Origin: Candidatus Heimdallarchaeota archaeon
Lineage (GTDB): Archaea; Asgardarchaeota; Heimdallarchaeia; Heimdallarchaeales; JAJRWK01
Reading direction: 5' to 3'
Length of the DNA stretch: 34,389 nt
NCBI GenBank assembly: GCA_027001645.1
Contig: JALTMP010000363.1
Span: 1-34,389, forward strand
The translations under genes were made by a program, and so were the position numbers. The notes beneath the pieces are model-generated. The model was given only the letters and a program-made list of their open reading frames with translations. It did not search any database and was not told where the DNA came from. Positions within the stretch are counted from its first letter, which is position 1; each line of letters starts with the position of its first letter. Below, piece by piece: positions 3,729-25,858 of the stretch.

Positions 3729-4202
3729 TTAGATCAAGTGCTCTTTCCCATTTCTGGGCTTGTAATCTAAGACAAATTTTTCCTGCACATAAGATTCAAT
3801 TGATCCCGGTCTTAAGGATCTGATTTTGGTTAATGCTTCTTTCGGCTTCATTCCATGAAACTCTATGAGATAGATCGCAAGCATTGTTCCGGTTCTCCCC
3901 ATACCATATTTACAGTGGATCCCTACCCTTTTTCCTTCTCTTTTGAATTTTGAAATAATATTCAAAAATTGTTCAATAGTTTCGTCGCCAGGAATACCCA
4001 TGTCCTTTATTGGCAAATGCTTAACTTGGATTTGGTATGCTCCAGCCAAGTCAGAATCAGCTGGAGTGTTACTAAGACTAATAATTACGTCAACTCCTTG
4101 CTCCCTCAGAAAGTGAAAGTGTTCTTCTGTCCATGGAAACGCAAATCCTGCTACAGTGTCATCTATCCACGAGAATCGAAATGAAAATCGAATCATATCC
4201 AT
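3729..4202 (-). CDS. Dual-specificity protein phosphatase, DUSP23/VHZ-like
   Basis: CX5R loop HCKYGMGRTGT; FSWIDDTVAGFAFP...EEHFHFLREQGVDVIISL...LRPGSIESYVQEKFV matches the DUSP23-type pattern. Confidence 0.9.
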   Translation of the reverse strand: MDMIRFSFRFSWIDDTVAGFAFPWTEEHFHFLREQGVDVIISLSNTPADSDLAGAYQIQVKHLPIKDMGIPGDETIEQFLNIISKFKREGKRVGIHCKYGMGRTGTMLAIYLIEFHGMKPKEALTKIRSLRPGSIESYVQEKFVLDYKPRNGKEHLI

Positions 4203-4341: not shown

Positions 4342-4908
4342 GTGCAAGGAAGTAGCTATTTTCTAAAAATTGTTCTCATGGGTGAAGGTGCCGTTGGGAA
4401 AACCTCTCTCCGCAACCGTTACATGGGAAAAGGTTTCAAAACTCAGCATCTCATGACTATAGGTGCTGATTTTTCGACCCATCGACAGGTTATTGACGGG
4501 AATGCTGTCACATGGCAAATCTGGGATTTGGCTGGTCAGCAAAGCTTCCAAAGCGTGAGACAAAGATTCTTTAAGGGTGCAATGGGCGGTCTGCTGGTTT
4601 TCGATGTTACTCGGCCGGAAACTTTCATGGCATTGCCCCAATGGATTGAGGAATTGTGGCGAAACAGTGGTAGAGGAGTCGTCCCAATGGTTCTGCTTGG
4701 CAATAAGGCTGACCTTAAACGCGCTGTATCCAAGAAACAAGCCGAAGAATATGCTAAACTGCTCAGTCGAACGGTTAAACAGTATGGATTTACCATGCAA
4801 TACCTCGATACTTCTGCCAAAACAGGGCTTAATGTGAAAGAAGCTTTTGAACTTCTAGGACGACAAATAATTCACGCAATTCAGTCAGGAAAACTAAATC
4901 TCGCTTAA
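4342..4908 (+). CDS. Rab/Ras-type small GTPase
   Basis: GTG start; P-loop GEGAVGKTS, switch I TIGADF, WDLAGQQ, NKADL, TSAK; about 20 kDa single G domain. Confidence 0.95.
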   Translation: MQGSSYFLKIVLMGEGAVGKTSLRNRYMGKGFKTQHLMTIGADFSTHRQVIDGNAVTWQIWDLAGQQSFQSVRQRFFKGAMGGLLVFDVTRPETFMALPQWIEELWRNSGRGVVPMVLLGNKADLKRAVSKKQAEEYAKLLSRTVKQYGFTMQYLDTSAKTGLNVKEAFELLGRQIIHAIQSGKLNLA

Positions 4909-6923: not shown

Positions 6924-7154
6924 CCGCCATTCTACGAACCTTTGGCACTATTTTTCCCCTATTCTTTATTGATCCTTTTCATGGGCTTTTAGTCTGATAA
7001 CTTTCCGCTATTCGTGTTCCTAGGCCGTTCTTTTAACCAATCCTTAGTTTGCGTATTCTCCTCAATGTCTGATTAGAAGCGAAATGTTCTTCTCTCGTAA
7101 AAGTTAAATTGAATAGGTCTGTTTATTATCACGGCACCATTGGAGGTGTAGGCT

Positions 7155-8901: not shown

Positions 8902-9018
8902 TCTCTGGCTCTTACGTGTCGTTTTTTTCGCTTATTGTTTGCTGGGCACAGTTCACCATAATAGATAAAAAAGTCAAATCGGATGTTCCATTTGAAATAT
9001 TTGCCATTGGTGATATAC

Positions 9019-9378
9019 ATGTCATTCCAAGATGAAGCAGTAAGATTGTTCCAGGAAGGAAACATCGGAGTTGCAGTCCTAGTAGGAGAAGATAATCAGA
9101 TTTATTGGAAAATGGGTGAGTGGGATTTCGACCCAATTCAAGCAATTCAAGATTGGAAAGCGGGAACTTCCCCCGTATTTGTAGGCGGGCTCAAGTTTTC
9201 CGTTATTCGAAAAGAACCCGATCGGTTTGTTGCTACAAACTTGCAACAACAGGGGCATCTCATCATTGCTCAATGCCCATTCTGGCCAGGGTACTTAATT
9301 GCATGGGCTCCGTCAAGCGTTGGTCCTGATGTTGCCTATGCGGAAGTAGCAAAACTTGCCGCAATGGTTAAATCCTAA
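9019..9378 (+). CDS. Profilin homologue
   Basis: From ATG 9019: MSFQDEAVRLF...GVAVLVGEDNQIYWKMGEWDFDPIQAIQDW...SPVFVGGLKFSVIRKEPDRFVATN...GHLIIAQCPFWPGYLIAWA aligns by eye with plant-type profilin (MSWQxYVDxHL...AAIIGxDGxVWAQSxxFPxFKPEEIxxI...GGxKYMVIQGEPGxVIRGKK). ORF track start 8983 adds 12 aa. Confidence 0.85.
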   Translation: MSFQDEAVRLFQEGNIGVAVLVGEDNQIYWKMGEWDFDPIQAIQDWKAGTSPVFVGGLKFSVIRKEPDRFVATNLQQQGHLIIAQCPFWPGYLIAWAPSSVGPDVAYAEVAKLAAMVKS

Positions 9379-14775: not shown

Positions 14776-16830
14776 ATGGGAGCGACTGGATTAGAACTGG
14801 TTAATGAATTGAAAAGATATGTTCCAAAATCTACTGAGAATGCCCTAGTATGGCTTATTGGCAAACTAACCGTGGAGGGGAGCGTAGCAATTAAAGACGT
14901 TGCTTCCTATCTAGGGGTACCCATCGAAGAAGCTGAGATTTTTTTGGGAAAACTTCTCCAATACCAGGGCTTTCCAGCCAAATTCAGAGATGATCGCTTT
15001 GTCTTGACAAAATCAATTGCTTTTGCGACGTCCAATGCGGACAGTCTTAGCAAACAAGAAGAGGAATTTTTGGGATACCTTCGAGGAAGAGGTGCTTTTG
15101 TACCCAAAGAAATTGATTTTATCTTTGGTTGGAGCGAAAGAGAAGCTTGGCACAGATTTTACTCTTTGATCATAAGGGGCTATATTACTGCATCAGTAGT
15201 AATGGGTGTTGTTACTCCGAAAATCACCTTCTCTCCTGAACCCCTATCTCCAGAGGAAATTACTGATCAAGACGTCATTATTGTGGGAATGTTTCAATTA
15301 TTTCAAGAAGCAACAATTTCTCGAATTCAAGAACTAGTTCAATATCCTTATGAAACGATCATTAGAAGGTTATTTCTTCTTTCTTTTTACGAAGCAATTC
15401 AAGCAAAGTTTGTGTTTATTGAACGAATTATGAGATCTCCTTCTCTTGTTGTAAAACATGCAAAGTTTCTCATTTCATTTCCTCGGCGTTCTGTCACAAT
15501 CCTTCAAGAGAACGAGAAGCTAGTTATTGGCCTTGTTCTAATGATGCGAAAGGTTTCATACAAGCGGATTGCATTAATAATGGAAATTTCGGAAGAGGAA
15601 GTTTTACGAATTGCTGCTCAACTTACTGCCACAAAGGTTGTTCCCTTGGCCATGGATTCAGAAGGGAACATGTTCATGTCAATGCCTGTTGATTACCGCC
15701 CATATCGCTCCTTGGAACAAATTCAACGGCTTTCTCTATTCAACTATCATGTCTTGTTGGGACTGCTTGCCACTCATCGAACAATCAATCTAAAGGTTAT
15801 TGCTAAAAGAATGAATGAGCCCCCCTTCGAAGTCTTGCGCGGCATTATTGTCCTTGTTCTTGAAGGTTTTCTAGTCTGCCAAATGAACAAGAAATATGAT
15901 ATTACCCTAGAAGAAATCCGAACATATTCTGGAGTCGGAGAGAAAGCTGTTGAGAAATGGGAAGCTGTGGTTATCGGTGCCCTTCAACTGCATGGGTTTG
16001 TAGATATTTTGGAGATTTCCAAACTTTTGAAGGTTAGCAAACGTGTTGCATTAGAACTGGCCTATACCGTCGTTGCGCGTGGCTTAGTTAAGGCAAGGGT
16101 CAAATTAGATCGTGTTCTGCGAGCTCTCGAACCCGTGCATATTCCCCCCACTATCCACCCCTCTGAATTAGAACTTAGAGAGAGGCAGATCCTCGGATAT
16201 CTGTTTCTCAAGCGAGAAACGGATTGGAAAGAATTAAGGAAAGGATGGAGGCTAAATGCGCTTGAGGCTCGACAAATCATCTACATGTTATCGGGGTATG
16301 GTCTCGTAACTATCATCCTAAAAGGCAAGAAGCTTCATGTAATTGAGAAAGCGGATATTAAGCCTAATCGGTCCGTAGAAGAACTTGGCAAAAATGCCGA
16401 AAAAATCTACAACTCCCTAGACCGCCTTCCTGACGCCATCACCATTCGTGAACTTGTCAATGTTTCCCGTCTGAAACGTCATGAGGTGTTATACGCGTTA
16501 TATGAATTGGCCGCAGAGGGATTTGTCGTAGGTGAACTCGGCGTTGAACTATTCAAGAAATCCGCAATAAAGCGCGCGCCCCGGATTCCGCGATGTCTTT
16601 CGTGTAAGGAGGAATTGCCAGAACCTAACTCTGAGTGTCCTTCTTGTGGTGCTCCTCCGCCCACTTGTAGCGTCTGCAGGGGAGGGATCGATTCGCGAGA
16701 TCCCATTGCAAGATGTCCTTCTTGCAAATACGTTGCCCACGATTCCCACCTCAAAGAATGGCTCAAAATAAAAGGCGAATGCCCGGTTTGCAGGACCAAA
16801 CTGGCATGGGAAGAAGTTCTTCTGGAATAG
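14776..16830 (+). CDS. Winged-helix-like repeat protein with C-terminal zinc ribbon and RING-like finger
   Basis: 684 aa; repeated helix-turn-helix-like units (SVAIKDVASYLGVPIEEAEIFLGKLL; VDILEISKLLKVSKRVALELAYTVVARGLV; ITIRELVNVSRLKRHEVLYALYELAAEGFV); C-terminus CLSC-x11-CPSC then CSVC-x10-CPSC-x4-H-x2-H-LKEWL-x5-CPVC. Confidence 0.8.
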   Translation: MGATGLELVNELKRYVPKSTENALVWLIGKLTVEGSVAIKDVASYLGVPIEEAEIFLGKLLQYQGFPAKFRDDRFVLTKSIAFATSNADSLSKQEEEFLGYLRGRGAFVPKEIDFIFGWSEREAWHRFYSLIIRGYITASVVMGVVTPKITFSPEPLSPEEITDQDVIIVGMFQLFQEATISRIQELVQYPYETIIRRLFLLSFYEAIQAKFVFIERIMRSPSLVVKHAKFLISFPRRSVTILQENEKLVIGLVLMMRKVSYKRIALIMEISEEEVLRIAAQLTATKVVPLAMDSEGNMFMSMPVDYRPYRSLEQIQRLSLFNYHVLLGLLATHRTINLKVIAKRMNEPPFEVLRGIIVLVLEGFLVCQMNKKYDITLEEIRTYSGVGEKAVEKWEAVVIGALQLHGFVDILEISKLLKVSKRVALELAYTVVARGLVKARVKLDRVLRALEPVHIPPTIHPSELELRERQILGYLFLKRETDWKELRKGWRLNALEARQIIYMLSGYGLVTIILKGKKLHVIEKADIKPNRSVEELGKNAEKIYNSLDRLPDAITIRELVNVSRLKRHEVLYALYELAAEGFVVGELGVELFKKSAIKRAPRIPRCLSCKEELPEPNSECPSCGAPPPTCSVCRGGIDSRDPIARCPSCKYVAHDSHLKEWLKIKGECPVCRTKLAWEEVLLE

Positions 16831-22933: not shown

Positions 22934-23109
22934 ATTCTCTCTGTCCTTGTTTGATCCTTAGTGGTTTTCAGTATTCCTTTTCGGACAGATTATTTATGCC
23001 GATTAACTTGCTCTTTTTTCCTTACTCTTCAATACCATCCCAATGATTAATATGCACGACTACGCATGGAAACAATAGAAGAATAAAATTTCGGGGTTTG
23101 GTGATCTAC

Positions 23110-24891
23110 GTGGAATTTACAGCCCTATGCTCATATTTTGAGCAATTAGAGAAAACTGCTAAGCGCTTGGAGCTTATCGCAATCATACAAGAGTTGCTTT
23201 CTCAAACTCCCACCGAAGAGCTGGAGCCCGTAATCTACATGGTACTCGGTCAATTGGGACCAAAGTATGACGAGCCAAATCTCGGAATCGCCGAGAGAAT
23301 GGCGATTGAGGCTTTGAGGAATGCAGCTGGCGTGTCCTCAAAAAAAGCAAATGAAGTTCTAAACCAAGTTGGTGATTTAGGCGAAGCAGCAAGAATTCTA
23401 CTCTCCAAAGAGCGATCGAGTTCTTTAGAAATGTTTCTTGGGGGGGATTCAAGCGTTTACTCAGCTAAATTATCTGTAAGGCAAGTCTGGAATCGCTTGC
23501 TTGATATTGCTCTATTAACAGGAGAAGGCTCTGCTAAGATGAAAATTCGATCTCTGACCAAACTCCTTGTTGATTTGGATCCTATTGGTGCAAAGTATGT
23601 CATGAGGCTGGTTATGGGCAAAATGCGTCTTGGCGTTGCGGACATGACTGTTGTTGAAGCAATTGCGAGAGCATATCTCGGGGACAAAGAATTAAAACCA
23701 ATCGTTGAACAAGCGTACTTTAAGCGATCTGATCTAGCTGAGATTGCAATTATGGCAAAAGAACAAGGTGTTGAAGCACTGAAGTCTGTAAGAGTTGAAC
23801 CTGGTAGACCCGTTCAATGCATGGCTGCACAACGCCTCTCTGATCCCGAGGAAATTCTTGAAAAACTGGGTGGAAGCTGTCAAGTTGAATACAAGTATGA
23901 CGGCCTTAGATTTCAATATCACCTCGATAAGAATGGTCATGCAAGGCTTTGGTCTCGTCGGCAAGAAGATCTGACTCCAATGTTTCCCGATGTTATCAAC
24001 GCTTTGAAAAACGCATTAGGAAATGCCCCTATCATCGTAGAAGGAGAAATCGTTGCTTATGACTATGAAAAAGATCGGATCATTGAGTTTCAAACCTTAA
24101 TGCAGAGGAGGCGAAAGTACGGCATTGAAGCCAAACTCGAAGAAATTCCTTCAAAATCATTTCTTTTTGATATCTTATATGTGGATGGTAAAGACGTGAC
24201 CTCTCTTTCTCTTCCCAAACGACGCGAACTTTTGGCTAGGCATTGTTCATGTTCTAAGAAGACCGAGTTGTCAACCTCGGAAATCGTTTCCAATGTTGAT
24301 GACTTCAACGAATTCTTTGACCAAGCAATTGATGCCAATTGCGAAGGAATAATGGCTAAAGATATCTCTACGAAATCAGTTTATGAAGCAGGAGCGAGAG
24401 GGTGGCTTTGGATTAAGTATAAAGCAGATTACCGGTCTGAGCTTGCAGACACCTTTGACTTAGTGGTGGTTGGTGCATGGTTCGGAAGGGGACGTAGGGG
24501 GGGATATTATGGTACACTGCTCATGGCAGCATATGATCCCGAATCAGATACCTTTCCTACATTCTGCAAGCTTGGCAGCGGGTTGAACGATGAAGACTTA
24601 GAGTATTTGAAAACAGAATTAGAGAAATTACGAGTACCTGATAAACCAAAGAACGTTTCATCTGAGCTCGAGCCAGACATTTGGGTCGAACCTAAGTTAG
24701 TAATGGAAATAGTGGCTACTGAAATCACCCAAAGCCCCATTCACATGGTAACCGACGAGGATGGAAATCGTCTCGCTCTTCGCTTTCCACGTTTCACGGG
24801 ACGATATCGTGATGATAAAGATCCCTACGATATAACAACTGTCCAGGAAATCAGAGAATTAAAAAAGCTAAGAATCCAGAATAGGGATTAG
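23110..24891 (+). CDS. lig: ATP-dependent DNA ligase
   Basis: Adenylation motif VEYKYDGLRFQYHL, motif III FLFDILYVDGKDVT, EGIMAKDI, WLWIKYKADY; EFTALCSYFEQLEKTAKRLEL favours GTG 23110 over TTG 23098. Confidence 0.96.
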   Translation: MEFTALCSYFEQLEKTAKRLELIAIIQELLSQTPTEELEPVIYMVLGQLGPKYDEPNLGIAERMAIEALRNAAGVSSKKANEVLNQVGDLGEAARILLSKERSSSLEMFLGGDSSVYSAKLSVRQVWNRLLDIALLTGEGSAKMKIRSLTKLLVDLDPIGAKYVMRLVMGKMRLGVADMTVVEAIARAYLGDKELKPIVEQAYFKRSDLAEIAIMAKEQGVEALKSVRVEPGRPVQCMAAQRLSDPEEILEKLGGSCQVEYKYDGLRFQYHLDKNGHARLWSRRQEDLTPMFPDVINALKNALGNAPIIVEGEIVAYDYEKDRIIEFQTLMQRRRKYGIEAKLEEIPSKSFLFDILYVDGKDVTSLSLPKRRELLARHCSCSKKTELSTSEIVSNVDDFNEFFDQAIDANCEGIMAKDISTKSVYEAGARGWLWIKYKADYRSELADTFDLVVVGAWFGRGRRGGYYGTLLMAAYDPESDTFPTFCKLGSGLNDEDLEYLKTELEKLRVPDKPKNVSSELEPDIWVEPKLVMEIVATEITQSPIHMVTDEDGNRLALRFPRFTGRYRDDKDPYDITTVQEIRELKKLRIQNRD

Positions 24892-24897
24892 GTAATC

Positions 24898-25449
24898 ATG
24901 CCACTCTTCAAGCGTAAGAAAGAATCAGCATTTGCAGAATCTTCTTCTGTAATTAAAGATCTAAGAAAGATCATCCCTAACTACCGAGGATACGAAAATG
25001 TTGAGGACCGATTAGAAACGGATAAACTATTTCGCTCACATATTGTCGCTAAGCTCCGAAACATTTCCAATATTTTTGCGGAGATTGTTGGAAAGCTTAT
25101 AGAGATGCGTATGCTTAATGCATGGGGGGTTTGCGATCGTGCACTTCGAGAGCTGAAAGAGATAGAAGCAAAGGTACGGGAACCTGACTACAAGCACACG
25201 ACATTTTTTGACAATCCGACCCTCGAAGGGCTAGATGTTTCTGTTCTCTACCTCTTGGAATCAGAAGCTTTCGCTCTCCTGGAGGACATGAAAGTATTGA
25301 CCGAAGACATCCTAGGACGATTAAGAGAAGCTAATTTCGAAAATATCGATCAACTCGTTGCCAGATTAGTTCAATTGGCAAATTCCCTTGTTCAATTACT
25401 CAGTGATCGAATCGAGCTCATAGCTTCCTTCGAAATAATTGGCTTCTGA
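24898..25449 (+). CDS. Uncharacterized helical protein, co-oriented just after DNA ligase
   Basis: 183-aa ORF beginning 7 nt after the lig stop; predicted mostly alpha-helical by eye. Confidence 0.75.
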   Translation: MPLFKRKKESAFAESSSVIKDLRKIIPNYRGYENVEDRLETDKLFRSHIVAKLRNISNIFAEIVGKLIEMRMLNAWGVCDRALRELKEIEAKVREPDYKHTTFFDNPTLEGLDVSVLYLLESEAFALLEDMKVLTEDILGRLREANFENIDQLVARLVQLANSLVQLLSDRIELIASFEIIGF

Positions 25450-25466: not shown

Positions 25467-25748
25467 TTAAGACATTCCTTGAAATAGTTTTTTTCTAGCT
25501 TCCCTTTCATCAATTCCCGCGATTCTTACTATCTTTTCTCTGGACTTTAATCCACTAACAATCTGGACCTGGGACTTAGCAACGCCGAAAAAATCTGAGA
25601 TGAGTTCTACAAGTTCTTTGTTTGCCTTTCCTTTATCTGGAGGAGAAAGAACACTTGCCTCAATAAGATCTTCTGAAACACTTAATGGAAAGATCGCCCT
25701 TGAAGCCTTGGGTTTGACCCAGATTTTCAATGTTGTTTCAGAAGACAT
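25467..25748 (-). CDS. DUF167/YggU family protein
   Basis: IWVKPKASRAIFPLSVSEDLIEASVLSPPDKGKANKELVELISDFFGVAKSQVQIVSGLKSREKIVRI; internal ATG 25748 (MSSETT) preferred. Confidence 0.92.
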   Translation of the reverse strand: MSSETTLKIWVKPKASRAIFPLSVSEDLIEASVLSPPDKGKANKELVELISDFFGVAKSQVQIVSGLKSREKIVRIAGIDEREARKKLFQGMS

Positions 25749-25858
25749 GTTTATTCGCCTCTGCTTAATTCTTTGACGTACAATTCTAAGCATTTATGTT
25801 CTAGCCGATATTTGGAAACTGCCCAAGAGTTATAATTCTGGGGTTGAATCTTTTATTG

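Follow-up and report, generated by a model that had tools for sequence, protein, structure and literature searches.

A profilin gene from a Heimdallarchaeia-type Asgard archaeon and its relation to eukaryotic profilins

Background

A short reading frame on a contig of Candidatus Heimdallarchaeota archaeon (JALTMP010000363.1; the window, that is, the whole stretch of 34,389 nucleotides analysed here) raises the question of whether it encodes a genuine profilin and, if so, whether that protein stands closer to the profilins of eukaryotes, and of plants in particular, than other Asgard profilins do. A first-pass annotation, made from the sequence, had proposed a profilin homologue that is unusually easy to recognise and begins with a plant-like N-terminus. 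Here we assess the gene, its fold, its relatives and its probable function.

Results

The reading frame and its start codon

The peptides quoted in the first-pass annotation all occur in a single plus-strand frame (Table 1). Compared with one species of the same genus the frame differs at 27 of 357 nucleotides and yet at no amino acid, while the other same-genus species gives pS = 0.85 against pN = 0.07. These values indicate a real gene under strong purifying selection and exclude a chance frame.

The mechanically called open reading frame begins at 8983, exactly 12 codons upstream of the ATG at 9019. A Shine-Dalgarno-like hexamer precedes this ATG, MSF starts are found throughout the order (with in-frame extensions that are mostly short and unrelated), and in a sister species with an identical protein a 1-bp insertion inside the 12-codon extension puts it out of frame. 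The ATG is therefore the true start, in agreement with the earlier remark that the ORF-track start lies 12 codons too early. Over the 75 bp upstream of the profilin gene, identity to the sister species G002 reaches 97%, compared with 39-78% for whole other intergenic stretches. A stretch of about 60 bp before a ferredoxin gene (7091-7154) is likewise 100% identical to G002, and both stretches are probably promoters and leaders under constraint. An Rfam scan of the window returned no match, and a scan for bacterial-type promoters, which is unsuited to archaea, gave no matches above chance.

Table 1. Features of the profilin locus and of other genes in the window
Feature	Coordinates	Strand	Description	Basis
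Conserved upstream region	8944..9018	+	Putative promoter and leader	Identity to sister species G002
GGTGAT	9009..9014	+	Shine-Dalgarno-like, 4 nt before ATG	Sequence; GGTGA precedes ATG in many relatives
Profilin gene	9019..9378	+	119 aa plus stop	phmmer to 5ZZA, AF2, Foldseek, purifying selection
N-terminal helix	9025..9057	+	Residues 3-13	DSSP on model
GGLKFSVIR	9184..9210	+	Residues 56-64, predicted actin-facing strand	Alignment; contacts as in the bovine profilin-actin complex
HLIIAQ	9256..9273	+	Residues 80-85, next-to-last strand	Model, alignment
YLIAWAPSSVGPDV	9289..9330	+	Residues 91-104, final strand and the loop leading into the C-terminal helix	Model, alignment
Dual-specificity phosphatase-like gene	3729-4202	-	Adjoins small GTPase gene	
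Ras-family small GTPase gene	4342-4908	+		
RING-finger protein	14776-16830	+	684 aa	PF13639
DNA ligase	23098-24891	+	Same neighbour gene as in other families of the order	
183-aa protein	24898-25449	+	Position between DNA ligase and DUF167 kept in about 25 loci across the order	
DUF167/YggU	25467-25793	-	Same neighbour gene, about 16 kb from profilin	

Profilin identity by sequence and predicted fold

Significant phmmer matches of the window protein in the PDB are to Asgard profilins only, namely those of Odinarchaeota (5ZZA; E = 1.8e-10), Thorarchaeota (7PBH; 1.7e-9), Heimdallarchaeota LC3 (6YRR; 1.8e-8) and Lokiarchaeota (5ZZB, 1.4e-6; 5YED, 2.3e-5). A profile built from Asgard sequences only does reach eukaryotic profilins (E = 6e-4 to 3e-3 overall), among them Acanthamoeba profilin II (6e-4), the yeast protein (1e-3) and plant profilin-5 (2e-3). 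The Pfam model PF00235 aligns with the window protein over its full length (residues 2-117 to model positions 2-122; 16.8 bits, E = 0.0075) below its curated cut-off of 25 bits; this cut-off marks what a largely eukaryotic model can detect and is not a biological feature. Only 20 of the 29 Asgard profilins scanned match PF00235 at E up to 10, so membership of the Asgard family cannot be judged by it. The limit of the model is also seen in the archaeon's own genome, where a PF00235 search overlooked the window profilin entirely; an NCBIfam search with the window protein gave no match.

An AlphaFold2 model built from 29 aligned Asgard sequences (mean pLDDT 94.8) is arranged as helix, two strands, helix, five strands and helix (DSSP: H3-13, E18-23, E28-32, H39-48, E53-55, E58-66, E69-74, E80-85, E91-97, H103-115). 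As modelled and as compared by Foldseek, the N- and C-terminal helices would pack against the same face of a sheet of seven strands, which is the profilin fold. Ranks 1 to 41 of the Foldseek search against the PDB are all profilins (5ZZA, TM = 0.82; yeast 1YPR, 0.76; Arabidopsis 3NUL, 0.72). The alternative that this is a roadblock/longin-type protein, resembling profilin at a few motifs only, finds some footing in the sheet flanked by helices that both folds share, and in a roadblock-type Ragulator chain that appears in the same search at rank 42 (E = 2.8e-3). However, that chain is the first of its kind and reaches a TM of only 0.49, against up to 0.82 for the 41 profilins ranked above it, and the significant sequence matches are profilins only. 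With phmmer, the Asgard-only profile and the Foldseek ranking all against it, we regard a roadblock/longin fold as ruled out for practical purposes. Sequence, profile and fold thus bear out the proposed homology: an HMM search finds profilins, comparison with solved structures puts profilins first, and the gene is a real profilin of a Heimdallarchaeia-type Asgard archaeon.

Assignment of the motifs

Two motif readings of the first-pass annotation have to be revised. LIIAQCP had been equated with the eukaryotic LIIGIYDEP element, but alignment and model agree in placing it on the next-to-last strand. The counterpart of LIIGIYDEP is instead YLIAWAPSSVGP, and YLIAWAPSSVGPDV is the true counterpart of LIIGIYDEP-TPGQ; the last strand and the loop before the C-terminal helix read YLIAWAPSSVGPD, with YLIAWAP (residues 91-97) as the strand, followed by SSVGPD. 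The 'plant-like N-terminus' amounts to four residues (MS-F/W-Q), and N-termini of the kind MSFQ, MSFE, MSFN and MSYQ are the norm in the archaeal class, where MSF and MSY are usual.

Comparison with characterized profilins

The Odinarchaeal protein 5ZZA aligns over the full length at about 30% identity, and both proteins are without an N-terminal extension and without the Loki-loop. Unlike 5ZZA, which belongs to a different class, the window protein has a shorter C-terminus and an insertion-like loop, PFWPG, that joins its last two strands. The LC3 profilin 6YRR shares the MSY/MSF start and YW on the second strand, and groups with a sister lineage of the same class. Identity to it is about 27%; its 23-residue N-terminal extension is missing from the window protein, and LC3 has F147 in the polyproline site whereas the window protein carries no aromatic residue near its C-terminus. 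The Thorarchaeal 7PBH has the same fold and aligns across the core (TM = 0.73), but its N-terminus is extended and identity in the fold alignment is 23%. The profilins of plants, yeast, Acanthamoeba and human (PFN1) resemble the window protein in fold (TM about 0.6-0.76) and in the order of the elements, and differ from it in that its polyproline pocket is largely missing and its loop between the second helix and the third strand is shorter.

Closeness to eukaryotic and plant profilins

Full-length identity is 15-23% to eukaryotic profilins overall and 19-23% to those of plants. Scored against a profile made from eight eukaryotic profilins, the window protein ranks 10th of 92 (17.1 bits; best Asgard row, 24.4), while the 90%-identical sister protein ranks 31st (13.6 bits). 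Its mean identity to the same eight sequences (20.4%) is the second highest among 71 Asgard rows, in a narrow spread with a top value of 21.3%. By these measures the similarity to eukaryotic profilins is above average and unexceptional.

In the phylogenetic tree the window protein groups with its own genus (100/91) inside the clade of its order (99/99; 19 rows), and not with the plant profilins; the latter lie within a single group of the eight eukaryotic sequences (100/99), apart from the window protein. AU tests on the 120 alignment columns rejected none of six alternative groupings (p = 0.22-0.41) and showed no preference among the groupings tried for the placement of eukaryotes relative to Asgard groups; because every placement tried survives, they carry no weight for a grouping with eukaryotes. 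The tree as inferred gives no eukaryote affinity, although one could go undetected with 120 columns.

A profilin especially close to those of eukaryotes or plants, whether by common descent or by gene transfer, would accord with the MSFQ start, with the likeness of GGLKFSVIR to human GGQKCSVIR, with the second-highest mean identity and with AU tests that do not reject a grouping with eukaryotes (p = 0.22-0.36). Against it stand the placement within its own order with the eukaryotes separate, the modest profile rank together with the far lower rank of so similar a sister, and the indifference of the AU tests to the placements tried. Neither profile score nor tree supports a special affinity and the AU tests are without power, so that we give this explanation only a very slim chance. 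The description as unusually recognisable and plant-like is accordingly not upheld: plant identity is low, PF00235 falls below its cut-off, nine Asgard rows score higher against the eukaryotic profile, and the tree points elsewhere. In a previous study the eukaryotes were nested among Heimdall profilins with a support of only 76, the LC3 protein being among the nearest (Survery et al. 2021; PMC8410842). Our tree places the LC3 protein in a different lineage of the class from the window protein. A reading in which this genus has retained, in its profilins, an actin-facing strand closer to that of eukaryotes (GG-K-SVIR, as in human PFN1), and in which its order is the archaeal lineage nearest to the profilin inherited by eukaryotes, seems to us very unlikely.

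Distribution, copy number and gene neighbourhood

Profilin matches were obtained in 202 of the 228 Asgard genomes searched and in 50 of 57 near relatives. The protein is 100% identical in the MAG 'archaeon isolate Dive96_bin2.176', 90% identical in the MAG 'Candidatus Heimdallarchaeota archaeon isolate PIR-30_metabat2_scaf2bin.046', and about 42-53% identical in other families of the order. A search of the archaeon's own draft with the window protein gave one match only. A weak PF00235 match elsewhere in that genome (L001) was considered as a second profilin and rejected: the ORF there, of 134 aa, lacks the motifs of profilin and may be of roadblock type.

Paralogues do occur elsewhere in the phylum: genomes of family f5, a sister lineage in the class (L081, L082, L083, L120 and L121), encode a second, divergent profilin-like paralogue with a WWHTG motif besides the LC3-type protein. 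In many genomes of family f19 there are 2-5 profilin paralogues, and several of these have C-terminal tails and occupy open frames about 210-290 codons long.

At roughly 21-26 of the loci examined from the order's other families, profilin is followed by DUF167/YggU, a convergent protein of about 190 aa without known family, and DNA ligase. The window has these three genes too (Table 1), about 16 kb away from profilin. For the corresponding 183-aa protein of the window, neither Pfam nor NCBIfam gave a match. In the window's genus, profilin lies near a TPR protein instead. In one relative (G007, L025), TPR, profilin, DUF167, the ~190 aa protein and ribB all lie together, so that the different arrangements seem to have arisen by reshuffling of a single ancestral neighbourhood and support vertical descent. 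A dedicated profilin partner among the neighbours was also considered; DUF167 is a widespread family, and the association is read as conserved gene order.

Two further observations concern the window itself. The RING-finger protein, a eukaryotic-type RING protein in an archaeon, carries its finger at the C-terminus (residues 630-673; PF13639 just over cut-off) and has a sub-threshold PCI match. The dual-specificity phosphatase-like gene adjoins the gene of a Ras-family small GTPase.

Actin and gelsolin

The window contains no actin gene, as had been noted, and the archaeon's own draft (3.09 Mb, 430 contigs, 88% complete) likewise gave no actin match with either the Pfam model or a same-genus actin as query. 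Of 57 near relatives, 51 have actin; the two same-genus species are among them, with E-values of about 1e-136 and 3e-135. A single open frame of 233-251 codons encodes two gelsolin domains in the archaeon's own genome and likewise in both sisters. The missing match might be taken to mean that the profilin acts on a non-actin target in an organism without actin. We consider this highly improbable, given a draft that is 88% complete in 430 contigs, actin in both same-genus species and gelsolin domains kept in the genome itself; the absence of actin from the draft is probably an assembly gap. In the sister G002 the actin gene (L040, C275) has one in-frame TAG, at codon 130 of the matched stretch, while the copy in the same-genus G001 is open; sequencing error, pseudogene and recoding are all possible.

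Discussion

Slower nucleation or elongation of actin has been reported for the profilins tested from Odin, Loki, Thor and Heimdall LC3/LC2 (PMC8410842, PMC9433394). By analogy with them, the window protein most likely functions as an actin-monomer binder that restrains nucleation. It would bind monomeric Asgard actin via a face that includes the GGLKFSVIR strand, hold back spontaneous nucleation while allowing barbed-end growth, and probably be regulated by lipids. Residues K59, S61 and R64 occupy the alignment positions of human K69, S71 and R74, which we take to be actin contacts as in the bovine profilin-actin complex; R88, N124 and Y128, which also belong to the actin face of the human protein, are not conserved.

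The canonical aromatic polyproline pocket (W3, Y6, W31, H/Y133 and Y139) is not present as such: W31 is kept as W30, W3 is replaced by F3, Y6 by E6 and H133 by M116, and Y139 is absent. Because these residues are missing, we predict that polyproline binding is weak or absent, with moderate confidence only, since the LC3 profilin binds via a partly different site; without its extension, that protein bound polyproline at 0.3 mM through a partly different pocket (PMC8410842), which makes a forecast of complete loss, drawn from the residues, a weak one. The missing pocket residues suggest that the window profilin may serve as a basic actin-monomer regulator, rather than as a delivery factor coupled to formin or VASP.

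Taken as a whole, we are highly confident in explaining the gene as a single-copy, vertically inherited Asgard profilin that would bind actin monomers, with probable lipid regulation and weak or no polyproline binding. The family is already known from almost all Asgard archaea, and the protein is an added member that leaves the picture unchanged. Asgard profilins are part of the evidence for a regulated actin cytoskeleton before eukaryotes, and the window profilin, without an N-terminal extension or most of the polyproline pocket, would provide a test case for ancestral polyproline binding in the class.
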